IMG/VR virus record: IMGVR_UViG_3300006802_000543
Coordinates: 1-24,451 of that record
Source of the DNA: a virus
Length of the DNA stretch: 24,451 nt
Direction: 5' to 3' (one strand)
Shown here: positions 3,838 to 20,490 of the stretch, in pieces
How the letters are laid out: every line of letters begins with the position of its first letter
Numbering within the stretch: position 1 is the first letter of the stretch
Translations under genes and position numbers: made by a program
Notes under the pieces: model-generated
What the model was told of the DNA's origin: nothing
The model's database searches: none
The model's input: only the letters and a program-made list of their open reading frames with translations

Positions 3838-4515
3838 CTACCTCACCGCTTGGCTGGGTACGTCATACAATTCCAAGGCCGGCGACATGCCCGACTTGGC
3901 GACCACGTTAGCGCGTGCGGTATCGAGTACCCAGCATTGATCGGGAATCGCTTGCAATTCTGGATGATCGCATCGATAAATTTTCGTTTCGCTCTGCTGG
4001 CAATACTGTGGAGCTTTCGCCACGCGCCAATTCTTAATCAGGCGCATCGTGATACCGGGACCTCCGTTGTCCGTCGTGATGGACTTCGGCGGGGTCTTTT
4101 CGATGACCTTTGGTGGGGCTACCGTGATAGGGTCCTTCCCTTTTGCGATAGCGGCATCAATCTTTTCTTGATGCTTGCGGTTTTCTTCTGCCTGTTTTTT
4201 CCGCTCCTCTTCCAGCTTCTTCATGTAGTAATCGCCGGTCAGTTTCTTGAGTTTTGCCTGCTCCTCTTCCAGCGGAGAGAGAATGCTTTTCTCTTTGTCC
4301 TGTACGGCCTTCAACGCCTTACGGATCGGGGCCTTTAGGGATTCAAAAAACTCTTCGATCTTCTTCCGGCGAACCACAACCCCTTTGAGCCACAACATCC
4401 CCTCGGTGTATTGCTCCTCGGTTTTGATAGCCTTGGGCGCCACATTGATTACTTCAATCACCCGTTGCGCCGCTTCCTGCTCGTCTGTAACTGGCTTCTC
4501 CATAACTTCCTGCAT
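3838..4515 (-). CDS. Coiled-coil recombination-operon protein
   Basis: A 225-aa protein. Residues 45-125 are a long, charged coiled coil (KKIEEFFESLKAPIRKALK, LEEERKKQAEENRKHQEK). A Pro/Lys linker and a globular C-terminal domain beginning NWRVAKAP and ending MSPALELYDVPSQ follow. Phage proteins with this coiled coil plus C-terminal domain are regular neighbours of RecT/Bet genes and have no settled biochemical role. AAGGAGG lies six bases before the ATG. The stop is two bases from the exonuclease start, so the two are almost certainly translated from one message. A scaffold or loading role for the exonuclease/annealase pair is only a guess. Confidence 0.8.
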   Translation of the reverse strand: MQEVMEKPVTDEQEAAQRVIEVINVAPKAIKTEEQYTEGMLWLKGVVVRRKKIEEFFESLKAPIRKALKAVQDKEKSILSPLEEEQAKLKKLTGDYYMKKLEEERKKQAEENRKHQEKIDAAIAKGKDPITVAPPKVIEKTPPKSITTDNGGPGITMRLIKNWRVAKAPQYCQQSETKIYRCDHPELQAIPDQCWVLDTARANVVAKSGMSPALELYDVPSQAVR

Positions 4516-4532
4516 GAATCCTCCTTGTGTGA

Positions 4533-4706
4533 TTACTTCAACCCTTCCGCTTTGCCGACTCTGATAATCCTGCCGCCCTGTCCTGGCTGCGTCCGATCCG
4601 GCATCAGTCCCGCGTTTAACGCCTTCACAAAACGGTTTGCCATCCCTTTAGCCGATCCTGCGCCTAATCCTCTGCGGGGCTTACCCTTAATCCGTGCTTG
4701 AAACAT
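4533..4706 (-). CDS. Small basic protein
   Basis: A 57-aa protein, rich in Arg/Lys/Gly (ARIKGKPRRGLGAGSAKG, GQGGRIIRVGKAEG). The longer open frame begins at 4928, but the ATG at 4704-4706 has a strong AAGGAGG seven bases upstream, and the upstream part would read through a structured non-coding stretch. The charge suggests nucleic-acid contact. I do not recognise a family. Confidence 0.6.
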   Translation of the reverse strand: MFQARIKGKPRRGLGAGSAKGMANRFVKALNAGLMPDRTQPGQGGRIIRVGKAEGLK

Positions 4707-4752
4707 GCACTCCCTCCTTGGTGTGTGGTTATGGGTACTGAGGCCTTCTAAA

Positions 4753-4778
4753 CTGCCGACTCCCGAAAGAATCGGCAG
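4753..4778 (-). other. RNA hairpin with TTTCGG loop
   Basis: On the minus strand CTGCCGATTC and GAGTCGGCAG pair over 10 bp (one U-G) around TTTCGG, followed by only TTTAG. It has a terminator-like shape with a poor T-run, and lies immediately after a larger stem structure and before the next ribosome-binding site. The same loop occurs in the terminator at 20503-20532. Confidence 0.65.
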
Positions 4779-4780
4779 CA

Positions 4781-4823
4781 AACAAGGTCCCACTGTGCGG
4801 AGGCAGCACAAATGGACCTCGTT
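4781..4823 (-). promoter_or_regulatory. Two-tier stem-loop with CCTCC in its loop
   Basis: On the minus strand AACGAGGTCC pairs with GGACCTTGTT (10 bp, one G-U). Inside, after a 3x3 internal loop, TGTGC pairs with GCACA, leaving the loop TGCCTCC. The structure starts at the stop codon of the zinc/membrane gene. The CCTCC loop is complementary to the GGAGG ribosome-binding site 70 nt further on, so it could act as a translational control element. That role is inferred. Confidence 0.55.
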
Positions 4824-5071
4824 TAGCCCATCACGCGCGCATACACCGTGCCAATCACAATCCCTGCAAGGAGTGCGGCGGCAAACAACGCGCTGATTTT
4901 GGCGGTCGTGCAAAGGGTAGCAACCCACGGCGGGGGCGGTTCATTCTTCAGGATATCCTCATAGAGGCACCTGGGACACACTGGATCACCGGCGAAATCA
5001 GGCGGGATGACTGACCAATAACGACAAACATTGCAAACGTGGATACGTGCCCCATGTAACGTGTGTCCCAT
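4823..5071 (-). CDS. Zinc-ribbon protein with C-terminal transmembrane helix
   Basis: An 82-aa protein from the ATG at 5069-5071. The N-terminal half has CNVC and CPRC about 20 residues apart, a typical zinc ribbon, followed by a Pro-rich hinge (NEPPPPW). One membrane helix (ISALFAAALLAGIVIGTVY) comes just before the end. An upstream ATG at 5081-5083 is part of the ATGGAGG Shine-Dalgarno itself, so I prefer the inner start. Topology would put the zinc ribbon in the cytoplasm, anchored to the membrane. Function is unknown. Confidence 0.7.
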   Translation of the reverse strand: MGHTLHGARIHVCNVCRYWSVIPPDFAGDPVCPRCLYEDILKNEPPPPWVATLCTTAKISALFAAALLAGIVIGTVYARVMG

Positions 5072-6227: not shown

Positions 6228-7322
6228 ATGCAATCCACTATTTCAACCGTCCTGACTGAGGCTTCAACCCAGTGGCGCAACCGTCCCGATGATGAGCGGT
6301 TCCTATCGCTCGCGGATCTCAAGCAAGCGGTGGAGCAGCGCAAGCGGGAAAGTTGGACCACTCAACAGTCTGCGGCGTCTTGTCGCGTGGTTCCTGAATC
6401 CGATGGCCTCAAGCTGCAAGTCTGGAATAATTCAAAGGGTGAAAGCAACCTGCTTGATTTCAGTAATTACTCTTTCGGTCAATTCGCGGGGCTGGCAAAG
6501 TCTCCTGCTGGATACCTGCGAACCCTCCCGGCTGAATTGGCAGCTATCAACCTGCAATGGTGTCTAGAGAATCGAGCGGCGCGGGAAAATGCGCTGATCC
6601 TGGGGCAAACCAACGGACACAATGAATTGAGGGCGGTAACGTCAACGTCCTACGGGAGAATATGGGACCTCGATGTGGTCAACGCTGTGGAGCGGGTCAA
6701 CGGGGATGGTCGTTGGCAGATTCCAGCGGCGTCCTATGCTACCTCCAACCCTCGGCGCGCTACCACGTTATATGCGTCTGATAGGGATGTGTTTATCTTC
6801 TTGGTCGATCCTAACACCCAAGTCGAAGTGGCTGGGCGTCGGTATTTCCGTGGGTTCTTCACTTGGAATAGTGAAGTGGGCGCGGCGACATTCGGGCTTA
6901 CCACGTTCTTGTACGATCATGTCTGTGATAATCGGATCATATGGGGCGCAACGGAGGTTAAGGAACTCAAGATCCGGCATACAGGCGGGGCGCCTGAACG
7001 GTTTGCCTATGAGGGGGCGCGGTATCTCAAGCGGTATGCTGAGGAGTCCACTTACAACACGGTGGAAACCATCAAGAAGGCTGCGGCGTATGAACTCCCC
7101 CACGCCAAAAGCGATAGTGTAGAGCGGTGGCTGAAAGATCGCGGGTTTACTTCCTCCGTCGCTCAATCGGCGGTAGCGGCTGCGGATCAAGAAGAGGGCG
7201 GGGCGCGGTCCTTGCTCGATATCATCAACGGCATTACAGCGTATGCGCGGGGCCTCAAGCATACGGATGCGCGGGTAGATCTCGAAACCAAGGCGGGAAA
7301 GCTGCTCGATATCGTCAAGTAA
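6228..7322 (+). CDS. DUF932 phage/plasmid-like protein
   Basis: A 364-aa protein from the ATG at 6228, placed eight bases after GGAGG; an in-frame extension to 6102 runs through the promoter and is not coding. Characteristic DUF932 segments are ELRAVTSTSYGRIWDLDVV (about residue 130), DRDVFIFLVD, then RRYFRGFFTWNSEVGAA and LYDHVCDNRIIWG (about 210-245). The C-terminal third is helical. DUF932 proteins occur widely on plasmids and phages, often as an early gene near replication or recombination genes. Their biochemical role is not established. It is the first gene of the rightward early operon, so it is probably made in quantity soon after infection. Confidence 0.88.
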   Translation: MQSTISTVLTEASTQWRNRPDDERFLSLADLKQAVEQRKRESWTTQQSAASCRVVPESDGLKLQVWNNSKGESNLLDFSNYSFGQFAGLAKSPAGYLRTLPAELAAINLQWCLENRAARENALILGQTNGHNELRAVTSTSYGRIWDLDVVNAVERVNGDGRWQIPAASYATSNPRRATTLYASDRDVFIFLVDPNTQVEVAGRRYFRGFFTWNSEVGAATFGLTTFLYDHVCDNRIIWGATEVKELKIRHTGGAPERFAYEGARYLKRYAEESTYNTVETIKKAAAYELPHAKSDSVERWLKDRGFTSSVAQSAVAAADQEEGGARSLLDIINGITAYARGLKHTDARVDLETKAGKLLDIVK

Positions 7323-12072: not shown

Positions 12073-12252
12073 ATGAAAGCATTGATGATCGTGTGTGCGG
12101 CGCTGTTGGTGAGCGGATGCGGGTTGAATCTGAAGCATACGCAGGTCGAAGAGGCGCCGGCTGGGGGGTACAAGAAGGTGCATCATACGGTGACGTTCGA
12201 TACGGAGCCGCGCTGCGTGGCATCGTGTGATCCAACCGTGAAAAGTTGGTAA
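12073..12252 (+). CDS. Small lipoprotein
   Basis: A 59-aa protein with a lipoprotein signal: MKALMIVCAALLVSGCGLN, a hydrophobic core ending in the lipobox LVSGC. After the lipidated Cys about 44 residues remain, with two further Cys (RCVASC). Tandem ATGs follow a G-rich ribosome-binding site; the second (12073) is better spaced. Its size suits an outer-membrane spanin subunit (Rz1-like), but it is not Pro-rich and no partner inner-membrane spanin is adjacent. I leave the role open. It implies a diderm host or export from the infected cell. Confidence 0.7.
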   Translation: MKALMIVCAALLVSGCGLNLKHTQVEEAPAGGYKKVHHTVTFDTEPRCVASCDPTVKSW

Positions 12253-12254
12253 CG

Positions 12255-12848
12255 ATGAGCGACGAAGAGACAACCGCCCCTCCCCCGCTGCCTGAAAAGC
12301 GGAAGCAGGGACGGCCGAAAGGATCGAAGGACAGCTATATCCGTTCTCCGCATGGCTACACGAAGGCCATGCGGGGGCACGGACACTTGATGTTACGCGG
12401 CGCCGGCCGGTTGCAGGTGTTGAAGGACATTAAGCAGCGGGTGGCGTTGGGGGAAACGATCGCGGAAATTGAAACCTCGCTGAAATTGGCGAAAGGCTCG
12501 GTCTTTCGTGACTTGTACGGGCCGAAAGCGAAGGAATTAGTTAAGGCGATTATCGATGAAGCAACGATTGATAGCCTGCTGATCTTCGCGGAACTCATGG
12601 AAACGATCAAATCTGAAGCCGTCCACATGAAAACGCTGAGTGCGACGGGCGAATTGCGCGCCACCCCGGAACAGCTAGGGACGCTCATGCGTGCGGCAGA
12701 GAAAACGCTGGAAATCTCCAAGATGATTAACGGTCGTGGGCTGTCGATTTTTGGTGACGCCCAAAAAGAGGCGGCGAATCCTGAATTAAACGCGGCGGAA
12801 CGTCGGTTGAAGATCTTGGAAGCGCAGGGGGTGAAGATCGATGACTAA
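12255..12848 (+). CDS. terS: Probable terminase small subunit
   Basis: A 197-aa protein from the ATG at 12255; a TTG at 12246 is possible but less likely. The N-terminus has an AT-hook-like core (KRKQGRPKGSKD). An HTH-like segment (LGETIAEIETSLKLAKGSVF) follows, then helices suited to oligomer formation and a C-terminal helix (AAERRLKILEAQGVKIDD). It lies just ahead of the terminase ATPase gene, the usual position of the DNA-recognition subunit. The call rests on this order plus the DNA-binding features. There is no strong family motif. Confidence 0.6.
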   Translation: MSDEETTAPPPLPEKRKQGRPKGSKDSYIRSPHGYTKAMRGHGHLMLRGAGRLQVLKDIKQRVALGETIAEIETSLKLAKGSVFRDLYGPKAKELVKAIIDEATIDSLLIFAELMETIKSEAVHMKTLSATGELRATPEQLGTLMRAAEKTLEISKMINGRGLSIFGDAQKEAANPELNAAERRLKILEAQGVKIDD

Positions 12849-13170
12849 AGACCCGATGGCCGCGCTACAAACAGCGGTGGATGTGGCGCAAATGAAGGTG
12901 CCGAGTGAATCATTGGCCGAAAAGCTCTCTCCGCTTTCCTCGATGCCACATAAGCAAGGGGATGGAGAACGGATGATCCTGCATGCACTGAATAAGATCG
13001 ATCCTGTGCGCGTTGCCGAGGGCGCATTCTTTGAGTTGAACCGTGTGCTGTACGAAGTGACGCGGGTATCCAAGAGCGGCAAGCTGTTATGCAAGCCATT
13101 TACGGGGCAGTTGCTTGTTCCACGTGGAACCGCGACGGCCACACAGATTCAGGGGGCAAAGAAAGCCTAG
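12841..13170 (+). CDS. Hypothetical protein between small and large terminase
   Basis: A 109-aa protein overlapping the previous gene by 8 nt. The N-half is low in structure (PSESLAEKLSPLSSMPHKQ). The C-half has short strands (FFELNRVLYEVTRVSKSGK). Its TAG stop overlaps the GTG start of the terminase ATPase gene by one base, so it is coupled to packaging. No family is recognised. Confidence 0.65.
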   Translation: MTKDPMAALQTAVDVAQMKVPSESLAEKLSPLSSMPHKQGDGERMILHALNKIDPVRVAEGAFFELNRVLYEVTRVSKSGKLLCKPFTGQLLVPRGTATATQIQGAKKA

Positions 13171-13796
13171 TGGCCGATAAAGCGACCGAAAAGCTGCTGA
13201 AGTATTACGCCAAGAACATCCCCGCGATGATTCTTGAAACGGGATGGTTCAAAACCCGCGACGAAGATAACCCGGACGGCGGCGACCATCCCCTACCCGA
13301 TAAAGAATACCTCCGCTATCTGCTGGAACAGTATTGTCTGCATCAACGGATCATTCTGCCGAAGTCGAGACAGGTGTTAGTTACGTGGTCGTGGGCCGCG
13401 TATGGGTTGGCGCGCTGTCTTACGCGCAAGAACTTCTTGGCGATTTACCAGACCAAGCGCGAAGAGGATGCGGTGGGGTTTATGGATCGCGTACATTTTA
13501 TCTATGAACATCTACCGCCAGAGATACGGGCCGCACGGCCAGCCAAGCTCGATAACAGCCTGAAGCTGGAAATGCTGGATAGTGACGCCAAGTTTTGGGG
13601 CATCCCGCAAGGCGCCGATATTATCCGGTCAAATACGGTGTCGCTGTTCTTTGCCGACGAAGTGAATTTTCAACCGAATGCGCGCGCGTCTTTGCGTGCG
13701 GCGATGCCGTCCTTGGGCAAGAACGGGCAAGGGATATGGGGTTCTTCGGCCAACGCCGGTGGACTCATGGAGAAATTGATTCACGCCACATGGTAA
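13170..13796 (+). CDS. terL-N: Terminase large subunit, ATPase half (split gene)
   Basis: A 208-aa protein starting at GTG 13170. It holds all motifs of the packaging ATPase. A Walker A variant PKSRQVLVTW spans residues 64-73. Walker B SLFFADEV carries Asp163-Glu164. The coupling motif GSSANAGG lies at about 191-198. It stops at LIHATW, where intact homologues go on into the linker and nuclease domain. That missing part is encoded separately at 13968-15173. The motor half alone would be expected to bind portal and hydrolyse ATP but not cut DNA. A longer frame from 13089 overlaps the previous gene heavily and is unlikely. Confidence 0.85.
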   Translation: MADKATEKLLKYYAKNIPAMILETGWFKTRDEDNPDGGDHPLPDKEYLRYLLEQYCLHQRIILPKSRQVLVTWSWAAYGLARCLTRKNFLAIYQTKREEDAVGFMDRVHFIYEHLPPEIRAARPAKLDNSLKLEMLDSDAKFWGIPQGADIIRSNTVSLFFADEVNFQPNARASLRAAMPSLGKNGQGIWGSSANAGGLMEKLIHATW

Positions 13797-13806
13797 GGGA
13801 GTCCGT

Positions 13807-13971
13807 ATGCAGATTGGCGAAGGGAAAGCGAAGCTCGGTGATCCGCTGCATCATACGTTTTCGACGTTGAAGGGGGTTCAATATCGGCTGAAGTATTGCC
13901 CGACCTGCTTGACGTTGCACCGGGAAGTGATCGACACCGAAGAAGAACATGACACGAAAGTAGACTTGTGA
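13807..13971 (+). CDS. 54-aa CxxC protein between the two terminase halves
   Basis: A small protein with one CPTC pair (YCPTCLTLHRE) plus nearby His residues and an acidic tail. It starts ten bases after the ATPase stop with AAGGGAG upstream, and its TGA overlaps the GTG start of the nuclease half. It occupies precisely the break point of terL, so its translation is coupled to the nuclease. It might bridge the halves or be residue of an insertion; neither is shown. Confidence 0.6.
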   Translation: MQIGEGKAKLGDPLHHTFSTLKGVQYRLKYCPTCLTLHREVIDTEEEHDTKVDL

Positions 13972-15173
13972 CGGTTATAACAGGATTCCTCGAAAATCCT
14001 CCCGACGAAGAAGAGGCGAAACAGCCGGAAAAGTTTTGTCCTGGCTGCCGGCGCGCGCTGTTCAAGGAACACTTCGATAAAAACCAGTTTGCCAGCGATG
14101 GGTACTACACCTATTGCAAGGAATGTCGGGCTGCGAAGAAGCGCGAGAGGGAAGATCCGCCCCCCGTTCTCGATACGGTTGAAGTGACACCGGCAGAGCC
14201 TACGGCGAAGCGCGGCAAGGTCCCTGACGGCATCCTCAACGGCATCCAGGTGCCGGATGATGTAGAGGCGCCGATGGAAGGCGTGTGGGCGTGGCACACT
14301 CCGAAGGGGTGGCGCGTCATTGCCCTCCACTACTCAGCCGACCCTGACAAGCGGCCAGGGACCGAAGCCGGCGATGCGTGGATTGCGAAAAAGAAGGCCG
14401 ATACCTCGGAGCGTGACTGGAAGCGGGAATATGAACTCGATCATACGATTGCCGAAGGCGAGCCGTTTTACTCTACGTTCAATCGTTCGCTCCATGTGCG
14501 GCGCTGCGTCTACGATCCCACGCGGCCGCTCTTGCGTGGGTGGGACTTTGGGAAGGGGCATCCATCCATTGTCTTTGCCCAGGTGGACGAAAAAGCAAAA
14601 CTCAAGGTCCTGTGGTCATATATCTATACGAACCTGAACATCTACCAACTTGTTCCCATCGTCATAGCGGAAACGAATGCCCGTTTTCCTGAAGCGAAAG
14701 AGATTCGGGACTATGGCGACCCAGCCGGCGCGCAAGAGACAGACAAGGGCGCAACCACGATGATTCTCTTGAACACCTTCAAGATCAAGTTGATCTATCG
14801 TTTCAGTTTCATCGAGGAAGGCGCCAAGATGATTGAACAAAAGCTCATGCTGCAAGCCGATGGATCGCCGGGGTTGTGGTTGGATCCCTGTAATAAGGAT
14901 CTCAACGAAGGCTTTGAAAGCGGGTATGTGCTGGATACGGGCGCGAGCGGGAAGGACAGTGAAGGGCGGATCAAGAACAGCCCGAAAAAGGATGGCTGGT
15001 ACGATCATGTCATGGATGCCTTACGGTACTTGATCGTAAACGTGTTCTCGATGCTGCCGGATAAGCAGAGCGATCAGGACAAGGCGTGGGAGAAGATAGG
15101 TCTGTGGCGTACCAACGAACAGCATGCGGCGCGGGAATCGGAGAAAGAACCGATGGAGGAATTCAACCTATGA
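13968..15173 (+). CDS. terL-C: Terminase large subunit, nuclease half with N-terminal zinc finger
   Basis: A 401-aa protein from GTG 13968. Residues 24-53 form a C4 zinc finger (CPGC ... CKEC) of the kind often next to HNH nucleases, then a basic and Pro-rich linker. From about residue 104 the sequence is terminase: GVWAWHTPKGWRV, LHYSADPDKRPG, DWKREYEL. The RNase H-fold nuclease has Asp192 (RGWDFGKGH), Asp250 (YGDPAG) and Asp349 (DHVMDALRYL). These match the three acidic motifs that cut concatemeric DNA. No ATPase motifs are present. Together with the gene at 13170-13796 it makes one complete TerL. Confidence 0.87.
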   Translation: MTVITGFLENPPDEEEAKQPEKFCPGCRRALFKEHFDKNQFASDGYYTYCKECRAAKKREREDPPPVLDTVEVTPAEPTAKRGKVPDGILNGIQVPDDVEAPMEGVWAWHTPKGWRVIALHYSADPDKRPGTEAGDAWIAKKKADTSERDWKREYELDHTIAEGEPFYSTFNRSLHVRRCVYDPTRPLLRGWDFGKGHPSIVFAQVDEKAKLKVLWSYIYTNLNIYQLVPIVIAETNARFPEAKEIRDYGDPAGAQETDKGATTMILLNTFKIKLIYRFSFIEEGAKMIEQKLMLQADGSPGLWLDPCNKDLNEGFESGYVLDTGASGKDSEGRIKNSPKKDGWYDHVMDALRYLIVNVFSMLPDKQSDQDKAWEKIGLWRTNEQHAARESEKEPMEEFNL

Positions 15174-15457: not shown

Positions 15458-15684
15458 GCCAACGGGTGAAGATCCATGTTGACCAAAGCGAAGTGCGGCC
15501 GGTCACGCCGGGGAATCGCTGTATTACCGTGTGCGACATGGCCGGCACGATCTTGGAGCGCGGCGAGCGGATTGAACTGCATGGGACATGGATCTTACGC
15601 CAGTATCGGAATCCTGTGCCCTGTGCGGCAAGCGTGGTGCTATATACCGAAGATGACGGCTCAACCTACAGGATGGTGAAGTAA
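15454..15684 (+). CDS. Hypothetical small beta-rich protein
   Basis: A 76-aa protein, probably a small beta barrel (VKIHVDQSEVRPVTPGN, RIELHGTWILRQY, ASVVLYTEDDG). ATGA overlap upstream and a one-base TAATG overlap downstream. Function is unknown. Confidence 0.6.
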   Translation: MSQRVKIHVDQSEVRPVTPGNRCITVCDMAGTILERGERIELHGTWILRQYRNPVPCAASVVLYTEDDGSTYRMVK

Positions 15685-15998
15685 TGAACTGGTTCAAGTC
15701 GAAACCCTGCCAGGTGTGCAAAGTGAAAGACCAAGTGATTGCGGAGCTAGAGAAGCAAGTCACGCGGCTGTCTGGACAGTTGGCCCATTCCCGCGAGCGG
15801 GAAGAAAAGGCGGTTGATGCGCTACTAGAGCGGCAAGGCACGGCGCCAGTGACGCCGCAACCCCGCATGACGTTCAAGGATTCTGAGAACGCCCAAAAGC
15901 AGGCATTCGGCATGTTCTTGGATGAGCATGACGACGGAAGCGGGGCCGTGCTGGAAGTCGATCGCCTCAATGTCGAGAAATCCCCCCTCTTGCCATAA
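15684..15998 (+). CDS. Coiled-coil protein with N-terminal CxxC
   Basis: A 104-aa protein with PCQVCKVKD at the start, a heptad helix (VIAELEKQVTRLSGQLAHSR) and an acidic C-terminal segment. It is coupled to the previous gene and is the last gene before the portal promoter. A role in head assembly is possible but not shown. Confidence 0.65.
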   Translation: MNWFKSKPCQVCKVKDQVIAELEKQVTRLSGQLAHSREREEKAVDALLERQGTAPVTPQPRMTFKDSENAQKQAFGMFLDEHDDGSGAVLEVDRLNVEKSPLLP

Positions 15999-19182: not shown

Positions 19183-20490
19183 ATGGCCGCTCTTTCAAAC
19201 GTGCAATCCACGGCAGTAGACGCCTTTAACGAAGTCCTCAAGATCGATTACGAGAAGGGGATTGTTGATTCGCTGAACGATGAACAGCCGTTGTTGGCTG
19301 AGATTCAGAAGGACAGCGAATCATGGACCGGACAGAAGGTGGTATTCCCGGTTCGCCTGAAGCGGAACTACTCTGCGGCAGCGACCACGGAAGGATACCG
19401 CTACCACACTCCCGGCAAACAGCAGTACGACGACTGGGAAATTCCTTGCAAGTTCGCGCATGGGTCGATCCGGTTGACCGCGCAGGTCATTAACGCCTCG
19501 CTCAAGAGCAAGGGGGCGTTTGCGCGTGCGCTGGGATCGGAAATCGATGGCCTTGTCGAGGACATGTCGAACTACCGGGGCCGTGCGGTGTGGGGCTTCG
19601 GGAAAGGCGTGCTGTGCTTGGTCAACGGGGATCCTGGCACGACAACGACAATCACGGTCGATGCGCCTCATGGCGTGGCCGGCAGCGTGAACGGCGCCCG
19701 GTTCATCCAGCCGGGAATGTTCGTGGCGTTTATCAATCCCGGTACTGGGGCCATTCGCGCGGGTGGCGCGCGCACGGTGGACACTGTGGCCGCTGCCGGA
19801 ACCTCCTTCGATATTACAGCGGCCTGCGATGCGGCCGTAGGAGATAACGACTACGTGGTAATCGCCATGCAGTCGGATACCTCCGATGTGAACGAAACCA
19901 CGTATGACCGGGAAATCATGGGCATGCTGGGATTGGTGGATACCACTACCTATGTCAGCACCCTTCATGCAATCGATCGGTCGGCTTCTCCTGGGAATTA
20001 CCTGCAATCCGTGGCAATCGCCTCGGTGGGCGCGTTGAGCGCCGATGTGATGCAGCGCGCGCTCGATACCGTGCATCAGAAGGCGCGCGGCAAGACAGAC
20101 GCCATTTGGTGTGAGCATGCCGTGCGGCGTGCGTATCAGGTGATGTTGGAGAACGATCGCCGGTACATGTCGGCCTCCCTCGTTCGGCCGGATGGCGGAA
20201 CCGCTGCGGCCAAGGGGAAGGATCTGGACTTTGGCGGCATTCCGATCAAGACGGACAAGGATGCCCCTTACGGCATGATGTTCGGCTTGCAGTACGACAC
20301 GTTCACGCACTGGACCTTGACCGAAGGCCAGTGGGCCGACGATCACGGCTCGATCCTCCGGTTCGTGGATGGCTATGACGCCTACGAAGCGGTGTATCGC
20401 GTGTTCGATAACATCGGCTGCGAAGCTCCTCAGCGGAATTGGAAGCTGTCTGGCATTACGAATAACGCGGTCGTGGTTCACCTGCCGTAG
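19183..20490 (+). CDS. Major capsid protein (HK97-type fold)
   Basis: A 435-aa protein. It opens with a helical N-arm (LSNVQSTAVDAFNEVLKIDY), a loop region (SWTGQKVVFPVRLKRN) and the peripheral-domain helices (LVEDMSNYRGRAVWGFGKGV). A beta-rich insertion-like domain (about 148-235) starts at GDPGTTTTITVDAPHGV. The C-terminal half has the axial-domain pattern (DAIWCEHAVRRAYQVMLEND, DLDFGGIPIKTDKDAPYG). Order after portal and scaffold and before a terminator is as expected. The ATG follows AAGGAACG. No protease is visible, so maturation may use the scaffold only. Confidence 0.87.
   Translation: MAALSNVQSTAVDAFNEVLKIDYEKGIVDSLNDEQPLLAEIQKDSESWTGQKVVFPVRLKRNYSAAATTEGYRYHTPGKQQYDDWEIPCKFAHGSIRLTAQVINASLKSKGAFARALGSEIDGLVEDMSNYRGRAVWGFGKGVLCLVNGDPGTTTTITVDAPHGVAGSVNGARFIQPGMFVAFINPGTGAIRAGGARTVDTVAAAGTSFDITAACDAAVGDNDYVVIAMQSDTSDVNETTYDREIMGMLGLVDTTTYVSTLHAIDRSASPGNYLQSVAIASVGALSADVMQRALDTVHQKARGKTDAIWCEHAVRRAYQVMLENDRRYMSASLVRPDGGTAAAKGKDLDFGGIPIKTDKDAPYGMMFGLQYDTFTHWTLTEGQWADDHGSILRFVDGYDAYEAVYRVFDNIGCEAPQRNWKLSGITNNAVVVHLP

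Follow-up and report, generated by a model that had tools for sequence, protein, structure and literature searches.

A large terminase broken in two inside its ATPase domain in a group of uncultured tailed phages

The large terminase, which drives DNA into the capsid and cleaves it, is one chain in nearly all tailed phages. In the stretch of viral DNA analysed here (the window, 24,451 nucleotides (nt), positions 1 to 24,451 of IMG/VR record IMGVR_UViG_3300006802_000543), the ATPase motifs and the nuclease Asp motifs of this enzyme lie in separate genes. That is, one gene encodes an ATPase half (chain 1) and another encodes a nuclease half (chain 2), and the break between them holds a 54-amino-acid (54-aa) CxxC protein and a C4 zinc finger fused to the nuclease half. 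The original prediction described the locus in this way, and the open reading frames (ORFs) bear it out. The locus raises the question of whether such a terminase works as two chains, is rejoined by splicing, or is simply damaged. The case for two chains is strong, and the split terminase is real, old and unusual.

Chain 1 possesses a P-loop (KSRQVLVTW), a Walker B motif (FFADE, with the catalytic Glu in DE) and motif III (SSAN), and its stop follows the helix after motif III. The acidic motifs of chain 2 are WDFG (D193), GDPAG (D251) and KKDGWYDHVMDALRY; D193, D251 and the KKDG..H..DA motif are invariant across the window clade. When the two halves were compared with terminase profiles, phrog_2 ('terminase large subunit') matched both of them at consecutive profile positions (267-401 and 419-594). 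Pfam and NCBIfam searches gave no match for either terminase half of the window. The ATPase and nuclease genes are in one frame with three stops between them; the 54-aa ORF is read in a different one. The ATG of the 54-aa ORF lies 10 nt past the ATPase stop, and the nuclease start overlaps the stop of that ORF by 4 nt.

The same split was found in relatives. The break occurs at the homologous position in 21 distinct genomes, from IMG/VR and from six contigs of metagenome-assembled genomes (MAGs), when near-identical contigs are counted once and the fragmentary L154 and L155 are excluded. Among the split relatives are L007, L008 and L009, whose ATPases are 75%, 67% and 50% identical to that of the window, as well as L012, L020, L058, L059, L128 and L131. 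A search with the L133 ATPase gave additional split groups (L133 and L136; L137; L140 and L141). Scanning of bacterial genome contigs with the ATPase gave eight MAG contigs, six of them usable (L148-L153). Their bins are labelled Betaproteobacteria, Phycisphaerae, Omnitrophota and Acidobacteria, and they may be phage contigs within these bins. As a hint to possible hosts, they suggest acidobacteria or betaproteobacteria of groundwater. A scan of genome contigs with the window-type nuclease gave no match, and in L017-L019 the match was confined to the finger. The chain 1 proteins of all split members end shortly past the helix following motif III. No fused member of the split family was present among the relatives found; the nearest fused proteins are T4-like terminases, which score 36-69 bits against the split ATPase profile. 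Read from the sequences, the break is beyond chance or error, because every relative found is split at the homologous place.

In a tree of 32 ATPase domains, a single change parts the split proteins from the fused ones (support 91/87; 94% of bootstrap trees), and the corresponding branch of an earlier 26-row tree had 96/92. Both chains are under purifying selection, the nonsynonymous rate (dN) being well below the synonymous rate (dS). Ten records, the longest of 46.6 kb, were compared with phrog_2, and nothing but the split terminase matched it in any of them. We think that the split terminase is probably an old, working design rather than sequence damage.

As compared across the genomes, the break is conserved and the contents of the gap are varied. 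The gap of the window has the 54-aa gene, that of L007 has a homologue of it and another small ORF, and that of L008 has a DNA methyltransferase (PF01555), a 73-aa ORF and a 54-aa homologue. A different, zinc-ribbon-like protein lies in the gap of L009, and a protein resembling, by eye, the window gene upstream of the ATPase lies in that of L131. An HNH_3+AP2 endonuclease is found in the gap of L133. The gap of L140 has a protein with HNH_3 and zf-His_Me_endon (6672-7169), which is absent from the near sisters L141 and L142, also split. No gene intervenes in L059, L150, L151 and L153, where the chain 1 stop and the chain 2 start overlap or are 2 nt apart, and in L151 GAGGAGG directly precedes the chain 2 start. 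The chains lie up to 1.7 kb apart where they do not overlap, and each of the three possible frame relations is seen among the relatives. These varied gaps, distances and frames exclude frameshifting or read-through as a general mechanism and make an intron very unlikely. The frame shared by both halves in the window, L007, L008 and L009 had suggested read-through, but this is chance, because the other relatives show all three relations.

Two further observations were made in the gaps. In L008 (6615-7256), the GTG of the methyltransferase overlaps the ATPase stop. At the spot that matches the endonuclease gene of L140, its near sisters (L141, 2686-2926) have about 230 nt of other sequence with a helix-turn-helix-like (HTH-like) ORF, and L140 and L141 may be a natural homing pair.

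Could the halves be two exons of a single protein, brought together by a self-splicing intron or by trans-splicing? Introns in terL are common and often missed in annotation (PMC12363816, PMC10448857, PMC4299906), and the HNH genes in the gaps of L133 and L140 agree with this idea. Spliced, intron-broken terL genes are described in Moonbeam and LL-H (PMC4299906), ICP1 (PMC10448857) and the Jug phages (PMC12363816), and the terL of Mic1 has inteins (PMC7156551). These genes are likewise interrupted, often with homing endonucleases nearby. They are, however, rejoined by splicing, whereas here no intron was found, some members are gapless, and the genes are complete with conserved ends. Rfam gave no intron match in four loci, nor at E values up to 5 around the break, and no intein was seen by eye in the gap ORFs, for which no profile search for inteins was made. 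There is no room for an intron in the four genomes whose chains abut or overlap, and unrelated complete genes occupy the gap in different genomes. Moreover, the finger would lie within the intron, yet purifying selection acts on it in the reading frame of the nuclease. We give little probability to the exon explanation.

The position of the break speaks of how two chains could work. The cut is not at the boundary between the ATPase and nuclease domains but within the ATPase domain itself, past the motif III helix. The best match of the chain 1 profile in the PDB was T4 gp17 (3ezk, E 1.5e-7). We made a joined model with AlphaFold2, in which chains 1 and 2 of the window were placed on one string, with the frame-0 codons of the gap as linker and the stops read as serine. 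This model was superposed on the ATPase domain of T4 gp17 (101-360) over 254 residues at 3.0 Å (Z 23.5), with a model range of 1-429, which marks the first and last aligned residues only. Since chain 1 has only 208 residues and the range reaches chain 2, both chains seem to contribute to the ATPase domain. In the joined model, the predicted local distance difference test (pLDDT) was about 90 for chain 1 and 77-95, mostly above 90, for residues 95-154 of chain 2, most of the lid lying at 91-95. When chain 2 was predicted alone, the pLDDT was 65-89 over most of this stretch and 53 at its end. That chain 2 carries the last strand and the lid, completing the ATPase fold of chain 1, is a well-supported prediction of the modelling.

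The two halves also differ in their relatives. In a panel of 22 fused terminases, drawn from the matches of either half, those matched by one chain are not matched by the other. We divided chain 2 into a lid profile and a nuclease profile and ran each against the split chains and 94 fused terminases. The lid profile matched the type-3 split chains (L137, L140 and L141) at 30-47 bits, and none of the 94 fused terminases exceeded 3.6 bits. The nuclease profile matched none of the type-3 chains but 82 fused terminases, with scores of up to 135 bits; the best match of the nuclease fold was the D6E terminase (E 2.2e-8). A third nuclease kind is carried by L133 and L136, and it is weakly like those of the T4-like terminases (20-27 bits). 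The window-type ATPases form a single clade in the tree (100/100). L133 and L136 fall together with L149 and L150, with modest support, and the nucleases of the latter two are type-3-like (the match of L149 is weak). Judged by these matches, the lid and the nuclease domain of the window chain 2 differ in ancestry. The nuclease domain has probably been exchanged at least twice, the lid that fits the ATPase being kept in the window lineage; the direction and order of these exchanges are inferred.

In the aligned split ATPases, the P-loop (13362-13388 in the window) resembles K[SGC]R[QD]xxx[TS]W and lacks GK[ST], and the leading Lys, the catalytic DE and motif III are conserved. One might suppose from this loop that the halves are not one ATPase, that is, that chain 1 has lost ATP hydrolysis, another protein powers packaging, and chain 2 only cuts. 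The usual Gly-Lys is indeed missing in all split ATPases, where K, R and Q are kept instead. However, the catalytic DE and motif III are retained, and the loop of the fused relative L039 (KARQIGFST) also has the leading Lys without GK[ST]. In lambda gpA, the leading lysine is known to do the work of the P-loop. Because the fused L039 has KARQIGFST, the leading lysine may, by analogy, do this work in the split ATPases. Furthermore, the lid has been retained on chain 2 though the nuclease domain changed, and this is hard to explain unless the lid docks on chain 1. We consider it highly improbable that the halves are not one ATPase.

The last alternative, that one or both halves are remnants of a decayed terminase or that a sequencing error broke the frame, could appeal to the in-frame stops between the halves of the window and to the isolate phiPDS1, whose terL in two coding sequences looks like a simple frameshift, but it is largely refuted and hardly credible, given that the break is common to 21 genomes from separate assemblies, that dN is far under dS in both halves, that a second terminase match is absent in ten records, and that phiPDS1 is broken elsewhere and is unrelated to the split-terminase profiles. 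In this Parabacteroides phage (L156), the apparent single frameshift lies in the nuclease part (24501-24620), and its authors ascribed the two coding sequences to the codon table or assembly (PMC10773633). The lone damaged copy among fused relatives, which the original prediction had allowed for, was not what we found, as all relatives are split.

We then have to consider the zinc parts, which had been proposed to join the two chains; alternatively, the HNH-associated type of the finger had suggested that the break is the scar of a homing endonuclease. The finger cysteines are C24-C27-C50-C53 of chain 2. The match to EndoVII/HNH PHROGs is confined to the 45-residue C4 part; chain 2 has no Pfam match, and its C4 finger is not accompanied by a catalytic HNH or His-Me finger domain. 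The finger is under purifying selection (dN 0.20-0.24 versus dS 1.3-2.3 or saturated), as is the nuclease, and the linker after it is less constrained. It is absent from L020 and from all distant split terminases. L020 branches first in the window clade, an order that is weakly supported (87/28), and it is plausible that the finger was acquired later than the branching of L020, perhaps from an endonuclease in the gap that had decayed. The 54-aa protein is weakly conserved (39-41% identity; dN 0.61-0.72, dS 1.33 or saturated) and occurs only in the window, L007 and L008. Since the finger and the 54-aa gene are missing from many split members, neither can be the general joint. Thus, the proposed two chains are supported by the 21 genomes, the purifying selection and the sole terminase match in ten records, and the proposed zinc joint fails on the absence of the finger in L020 and distant members and the restriction of the 54-aa gene to three genomes. 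A homing-endonuclease origin of the break is a reasonable guess. It is made plausible by the HNH genes of L133 and L140 and opposed by the four genomes with no room for an insert, and it is unproven because the present-day occupant of a gap does not reveal what made the break.

Taken comprehensively, we think it very probable that this is an obligate two-chain large terminase with its ATPase site completed in trans and an exchangeable nuclease domain. Chain 1 would be the RecA-like ATPase core through motif III and its helix, and chain 2 would supply the last strand and lid of the same ATPase domain, and then the nuclease. Assembly of the chains in trans, with the lid placed on chain 1 in the manner of T4 gp17, would create the nucleotide site and the packaging motor. 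The split would have arisen once, in a T4-gp17-like terminase, and the gap would be a permissive site that gains and loses genes such as HNH endonucleases, a methyltransferase and small zinc proteins. The nuclease domain would be exchangeable because the lid alone must fit the ATPase. In the window lineage, the nuclease would have come from another terminase clade, and an EndoVII/HNH-type C4 finger would have been fused to its front. The assembly of the chains, their activity and the order of events are what we infer.

Several points weigh against this explanation. All members are uncultured, and the two chains are known from sequence alone. The ATPase activity could be doubted on account of KSRQxxxTW without the canonical GK[ST]. 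The overall confidence of the joined model is modest (pLDDT 69.7; predicted template modelling score 0.52), its linker is artificial, and the joined and chain-2-alone models were built from different alignments. The support for the single-origin branch is good but not starred. In addition, an undescribed intron or trans-splicing may exist.

Table 1. Features of the terminase locus in the window.
Feature	Position	Strand	Basis or remark
Probable small terminase (TerS), HTH-like, upstream of ATPase	12246..12848	+	Judged from position
Small gene upstream of ATPase	12841..13170	+	Similar protein inside gap of L131 (judged by eye)
Chain 1, terminase ATPase, 208 aa	13170..13796	+	GTG start, TAA 13794-13796; motifs, phrog_2, T4 gp17 match
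54-aa CxxC protein, accessory, in gap between chains	13807..13971	+	ORF; homologues only in L007 and L008
Chain 2, terminase lid and nuclease, 401 aa	13968..15173	+	GTG start overlaps 54-aa stop
C4 zinc finger, residues 21-58 of chain 2	14028..14141	+	EndoVII/HNH-associated type, in frame with nuclease
PxxILNGI...GVWxW segment, last ATPase strand (RVIAL) and lid subdomain (HYSADPDKRPGT...)	14220..14465	+	Conserved, on chain 2
RNase H-like nuclease domain of chain 2	14466..15053	+	Related to a different terminase clade than the ATPase

The product of the candidate TerS gene is without any family match, and in L008 a similar ORF abuts the ATPase start. The portal downstream of the terminase is P22-like (PF16510, 2.8e-11). 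The head genes are otherwise ordinary, because the major capsid protein (19183-20490) matches phrog_14242 (5.6e-47). Between the nuclease and the portal there is a small gene (15684-15998) with a CxxC start (MNWFKSKPCQVC), which has look-alikes in L007, L009 and L020 and whose product had no family match above the cut-off. In L056, the product of 3995-4834, directly downstream of the terminase ORF of an uncultured phage, resembles by eye an intein-containing protein (CVSGDTRVLTNNGY...).

Among known systems, chain 1 is closest to the ATPase core of T4 gp17 and T4-like terminases (RM378, immuto, PA5oct, S-H34). T4 gp17 is, however, one chain with the P-loop SRQLGKT, whereas the present enzyme is broken after motif III and has KSRQxxxTW and a nuclease of another clade. 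The nuclease domains of the single-chain terminases of D6E, MW202477, MW202637, SSU5 and Rollin type match chain 2 (up to 135 bits), but chain 1 has no match in the ATPase domains of these proteins, which also lack the finger and a separate lid chain. Enzymes in separate chains that are thought to reassemble include the beta/beta' RNA polymerase chains of jumbo phages and a split DNA polymerase III (PMC7824862), which are not terminases. The open-access literature that we searched, subscription papers lying outside the search, contained no description of a conserved terminase of two chains with the cut within the ATPase fold. The split terminase has the ATPase and nuclease with TerL motifs but is not one polypeptide, and we file it as a two-chain variant.

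For tailed phages, TerL is used as a single-gene marker, and the protein is assumed to be one chain whose ATPase, lid and nuclease parts move as a unit. Because neither half in the window has a Pfam or NCBIfam match, surveys based on the terminase may miss or mislabel these phages. We lean toward the view that there is a clade of tailed phages in which the ATP site is completed by a second polypeptide and the nuclease is a swappable cartridge, so that the motor has been paired with at least three nucleases. A natural two-chain form would open long-debated questions to testing: whether translocation needs a covalently attached nuclease, how the lid is coupled to hydrolysis, and whether motor and cutter are interchangeable.
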